DNA of 59,762 nt from Bacilli bacterium. GTDB lineage: Bacteria; Bacillota_I; Bacilli_A; RF39; UBA660. The stretch spans positions 1-59,762 of the forward strand of contig JAFUCZ010000020.1 of assembly GCA_017459425.1 (NCBI GenBank). The letters run 5' to 3'. A program made the position numbers and the translations under genes. Under the pieces are notes generated by a model that saw nothing but the letters and a program-made list of their open reading frames with translations, was not told the origin of the DNA and did no database searches. Positions 43,949-45,211 of this stretch are shown here, in pieces (the first letter of the stretch is position 1; each line of letters begins with the position of its first letter).

Positions 43949-45211
43949 ATGTTTGCAAATTTGAAGCAGATATTTAATCCCAAAAATAAAGATTTAAGAA
44001 AAAGAATATATTTCACTTTATTTGTTTTGTTTATCTTTAAACTAGGTACTGCTGTAATAGTTCCTGGTATAGATCAAAAAAGCTTAGGTACAGATAATTT
44101 AGGATTTTTAGATTTGCTTAATTATATGGGTGGAGGAGCAATGGAAAAATTTTCAATTTTTTCACTTGGTGTTATGCCATACATTACTGCCTCTATTATT
44201 ATCCAATTATTGCAAATGGATATTATTCCTTAATTTTCTGAACTTAGTAAGCAAGGACACACAGGAAGAATGAAATTAAACAGATATACAAGGTATTTAG
44301 GTATAGCACTTGCTTTCATACAAGGTTATATGTTCTCATTTGCCTTTATTGATGGTGGAAAACCTTTAGAATATATGCAATTTGCACTTATTTTAACTGC
44401 TGGTACTGCACTATTATTATGGTTAGGAGATCAAATAACACAAAAAGGTATTGGAAATGGAATTTCCTTAATAATTATGGCTGGAATTATAGCTAGTATG
44501 CCTTCTATGTTTGTTGAAGCATGGAATGGATTTGTTACAACTGGTACACTTCAAACTACAGTGTTTGGGATTATTAAATATATATTATTTGTAGTTGTTT
44601 ATTTAGCAATAATTGTGGGAGTTGTTTATGAAGAAAATGCTGAAAGAAGAATTCCTATTCAATATGCTAATAAATCAAATAGTATTTTAGGTAAACAAAA
44701 TTATATTCCATTTAAATTAAATTCGGCAGGAGTAATGCCAGTAATATTCGCATCTGCACTACTTTCTGTTCCAAGTTTAATTGCTGGAGTAATTAAAAAC
44801 GAACAATTTAGTTTGTTTGTAAATGAATGGCTAACAATGCAAACTGTTACAGGGTTTATATTGTATATATTATTTATATTTGCGTTTACATATTTTTATA
44901 CATTCTTACAATTAAAACCAAAAGAACTTGCTGAAAACTTACAAAAAAATGGTGGATTTATTCCAGGTGTAAGACCAGGTGAAGAAACGGTTGAATATGT
45001 ATCAAAAGTATTAAAACGTATTACTGTAGCTGGAGCTTTATTTTTAAGCGTTATTGCTGGTCTTCCAATAATATTTGGAGCAATAACAAATTTATCTTCT
45101 AATGTTAGAATTGGTGGAACAGGACTTTTGATTGTTGTTGGTGTAGCACTTGAGACTACTAAACAATTAGAAAGTAGATTGTTAACACGCAATTATAAAG
45201 GAAGAAGATAG
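43949..45211 (+). pseudogene. secY: Preprotein translocase subunit SecY, in-frame TAA at codon 95
   Basis: SecY forms the ten-helix protein-conducting channel. Codons 1-94 (43949-44230) encode the start through helix 2 to QLLQMDIIP; codon 95 at 44231-44233 is TAA; the same frame then continues without any other stop through FSELSKQGHTGRMKLNRYTR and the rest of SecY to 45211 (421 codons including the stop). Homologues have a Lys (AAA) at this place (VPKFTEWSKQG in Bacillus), so a single A-to-T change explains it. SecY is essential, so this is probably an assembly/sequencing error or a population variant; real read-through is possible but unproved. Reinitiation at ATG 44270 is unlikely: the AGGAAG there is one base away. 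Confidence 0.9.

Follow-up and report, generated by a model that had tools for sequence, protein, structure and literature searches.

SecY is essential. In Bacilli, its gene is part of the ribosomal-protein operon and the product belongs to Pfam family PF00344. In-frame stops within conserved genes are a feature of genomes with stop reassignment, such as NCBI code 4, in which TGA is read as Trp, and they are also found as stray nonsense in draft metagenome assemblies. Here we analyse a secY reading frame interrupted by a TAA, which lies in a window of 59,762 nucleotides from a Bacilli bacterium. A literature search returned nothing on point.

A single in-frame stop in secY

The secY reading frame runs from ATG 43949 to a terminal TAG (45209–45211) on the forward strand (43949–45211) and contains one interruption, a TAA in frame with the ATG at codon 95 (44231–44233), as noted in a preliminary description of this DNA. 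The frame is flanked by ORFs resembling ribosomal protein L15 and adenylate kinase, which we take from their sequences to be these two genes, and it thus occupies the usual place of secY in the ribosomal-protein operon. With the stop entered as X, the whole frame scored 356.4 bits against PF00344 and matched profile positions 1–305 of 306, so that it belongs to the SecY family over its length, while the assembled reading frame is not continuous. The first open part (43949–44233, 94 aa) scored 30.7 bits, slightly below the Pfam cut-off of 32.2 bits, and the second open part (44270–45211, 313 aa), whose ATG is secY codon 108, scored 295.4 bits. These matches agree with the earlier remark that the frame is open and SecY-like on both sides of the stop.

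About 50 bases past the TAA, codons 111–113 (44279–44287, forward strand) read AAC AGA TAT, where the codon alignment shows AAT CAG/CAA ATT/ATC in close relatives. The Tyr at codon 113 is found in no relative, and the three codons can be read as two mutually cancelling 1-base indels. They may go back to a genuine change or to another error in the local sequence.

The residue expected at codon 95

The preliminary description gave the homologous residue as Lys (AAA). This turned out to be wrong: in the column of codon 95 across 109 relatives, 102 carry Tyr (TAT in 84, TAC in 18), and the others carry Ile (3), Val (2), Ser (1) or Ala (1). Lys occurs in none of the 109, which rules it out as the usual residue. 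The usual TAT or TAC differs from TAA by one third-position substitution, and a single such substitution therefore accounts for the secY lesion.

The remainder of the gene is conserved to the same degree as in its relatives. Counting the stop, this secY deviates at one of the columns that reach 95% conservation or more, which is also the median number, and four of its residues occur in no other sequence at their column, the median being three. By these two measures, column conservation and unique residues, no relaxed selection was seen over the remainder of secY. Among the matches listed, the SecY of about 195 relatives contained no other in-frame TAA. The other stops in these matches were TGAs only, in G039 and G051, two genomes of the same class with 5–6 TGA within SecY each, a pattern that use of code 4 would produce. 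Split SecY matches in G070 and G170 are fragments at contig ends.

Copy number of secY in the draft genome

Draft genome G000, of which the window is contig C14, comprises 36 contigs and 1,093,251 bases, with an estimated completeness of 85.64% and contamination of 2.65%. The close kin of this draft are metagenome-assembled Bacilli, and from its fragmentation and these kin we infer that it is a metagenome assembly as well. One contig, C15 (L124; 2,390 bases), consists of N throughout.

A second intact secY, named in the preliminary description as an observation that would speak against a stop in a sole essential gene, was looked for, and none was found in this 36-contig, 85.64% complete draft, giving a SecY count of one. 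The interrupted gene could in principle be a decayed copy whose intact counterpart falls in sequence absent from the draft, as the completeness estimate and the all-N contig would allow. However, the copy at hand has the usual operon setting and, apart from the stop, ordinary conservation, and the relatives each have a single SecY among the matches listed. A hidden second copy is accordingly extremely unlikely.

Stray stops elsewhere in the draft

We compared G000 gene by gene with a single sister genome, G013, which belongs to the same family. Most raw in-frame-stop matches came from antisense shadow ORFs or from positions shortly before a true start codon, and these were removed by overlap filtering, partly by eye. 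In 549 ORFs with homologues, amounting to 172,669 aligned codons, six isolated in-frame stops remained, including that of secY. The other five are a TAA in a MiaB-type radical-SAM gene with a TRAM domain (C33:42977, L178; type confirmed by Pfam), a TAA in polA 5' of the VHDE motif (C4:12172, L114), a TAA in a HerA-like ATPase gene (C33:44546, L178; confirmed by Pfam), a TAA in a short PrgI-like gene (C25:48664, L167; named from sequence only) and a TGA in an M16-type peptidase gene (C32:25473, L175; confirmed by Pfam). 'TAA inside' flags on PolA in G006 and G008 fell outside the aligned region and were left out of the count; the same flag was also raised on relative G049. The PrgI-like, HerA-like and M16 lesions are weaker cases than those in secY, the MiaB-type gene and polA, and could reflect gene decay.

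The reciprocal scan of G013, covering 176,543 codons, yielded no in-frame stop that we judged genuine. G000 thus carries an excess of isolated lesions over this one sister genome, six versus zero in about 170,000 codons each, a split with a calculated probability of about 0.016 if the two genomes were equal. No frameshifts were seen in the G000 scan, spurious ORFs in a tRNA cluster aside. The six stops comprise five TAA, one TGA and no TAG, which fits the mix expected from random single substitutions in this genome (TAA 57%, TGA 26%, TAG 16%).

In this genome, 5.9% of substitutions create a stop. From this share and the 172,669 codons, all six stops imply about 2 × 10^-4 wrong bases per base, and secY, the MiaB-type gene and polA alone imply about 1 × 10^-4. 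Our best reading is that consensus base errors or minority alleles occur in G000 at roughly 1–2 per 10,000 bases. Lesions of a similar kind were found in other genomes: a scan of about 196,000 codons around secY in 80 relatives, with some spurious antisense alignments included, gave two that look genuine. One is a TAG in the gene of ribosomal protein L5 (L088:29–31), 29 bases from the contig end, and the other is a TGA in that of S13 (L074:6150–6152), mid-contig; both genes were presumptively named as ribosomal proteins from their sequences. The coverage of L074 is about 58 according to its contig name, and low depth is therefore no explanation for the TGA in the S13 gene.

Given the comparable stray stops in several other conserved genes of G000, we read the secY stop as a likely one-base error. 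On the evidence of these comparisons, the TAA is very probably a consensus base error or a minority base in the assembly. The draft would have been assembled from mixed DNA, leaving one wrong consensus base at codon 95, and the wrong base could stem from a sequencing error, an assembly error or a minority-strain base winning the consensus. Position 95 would then most likely be occupied by Tyr or a comparable residue in the living organism, whose SecY would be full-length and ordinary, and the source reads would be expected to show a sense codon at 44231–44233.

The stop might also be genuine in some cells, as a recent mutation or the dead allele of a minority strain, with most of the population keeping an intact secY. 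A mixed-strain consensus can carry a minority base, and isolated stops without frameshifts suit a minority allele as well as they suit base-calling errors. However, SecY being essential, cells with a dead secY would not persist, and such an allele would require several conserved genes to have been struck alike. We consider a genuine stop of this kind very unlikely.

Possible recoding or restart

The residues replaced by the stops differ between genes: Tyr in SecY, Arg/Lys in the MiaB-type protein, Glu/Lys in PolA and a mixed, mostly hydrophobic column in the M16 peptidase. No one residue is replaced across the genes. The RF1 and RF2 family proteins of G000 are both intact (two PF00472 proteins, 352 and 365 aa), TAA terminates 561 of the 853 ORFs of at least 150 aa (66%), and none of the 31 tRNAs found in this incomplete draft has a UUA anticodon. 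The draft as assembled thus shows neither a UAA-reading tRNA nor lost or altered release factors. Because the replaced residues differ, RF1 and RF2 are intact, TAA serves as a terminator and no UUA tRNA was found, a reassignment of TAA to one residue is not supported by the sequence. The preliminary description had dismissed reassignment on the terminal usage of TAA; the tRNAs, release factors and replaced residues now point the same way.

The same data bear on read-through or suppression of TAA, by which the sole SecY would be made across the stop. In favour of this, the secY frame is conserved on both sides of the stop, and five other conserved genes carry single in-frame stops, with TAA in five of the six genes. 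Yet the absence of a UUA-anticodon tRNA among the 31 found, the intact release factors, the routine use of TAA as a terminator, the differing replaced residues and the one TGA among the six stops all argue against it, and we regard read-through as exceedingly improbable.

Alternatively, SecY could be made in two pieces, residues 1–94 followed by a restart at ATG 44270, with the second piece lacking residues 95–107. In favour of this, an AGGA stands a short distance before this ATG, which itself lies 36 bases 3' of the stop, and helices 2 and 3 lie on either side of the break. However, the AGGA is part of conserved Gly-Arg codons, and the residues that the restart would skip, FSELSKQGHTGR, still follow the family pattern. 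Met occupies the restart column in 3 of 110 sequences, and no relative is split at this point among the matches listed, so that neither a conserved break nor a conserved start signal is seen in these relatives. A two-piece SecY is scarcely credible on this evidence.

Discussion

The preliminary description had left the choice between a sequence error or minority allele and a SecY that is split or read through. The first part is strengthened by five more stray stops in the draft, the lack of frameshifts in the scan, the lack of comparable stops in the sister genome and the variety of the residues replaced. The second received no positive support: no suppressor tRNA was found, the release factors are intact and no relative is comparably broken among the matches listed. 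A real stop would leave an essential channel relying on read-through or on two fragments, which would be remarkable. That the TAA is real, that the sole SecY is produced by read-through or as two separately started pieces, and that the other conserved genes are similarly interrupted, is highly unlikely taken together.

Our preferred reading, a wrong or minority consensus base, carries a caution: single stops turn up in the essential genes of draft metagenome assemblies often enough to be measured, in this case at very approximately one per 30,000–100,000 codons. A stop in an essential gene should be compared with the other genes of the same genome before a biological reading is given to it.

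In comparison with known systems, this secY shares full length, order and conservation with the Bacilli-type SecY of PF00344 encoded in the ribosomal-protein operon, codon 95 excepted, and differs from it in a TAA that appears at this codon in no other relative among the matches listed. With stop reassignment, G000 has in common that stops stand in frame within conserved genes. In contrast to code 4, however, only about six genes are affected, none by more than one stop; most of these stops are TAA, the residues they replace differ, and G000 has both release factors. The stops of G000 are isolated single-codon lesions in conserved genes, the same form that stray nonsense takes in draft metagenome assemblies.
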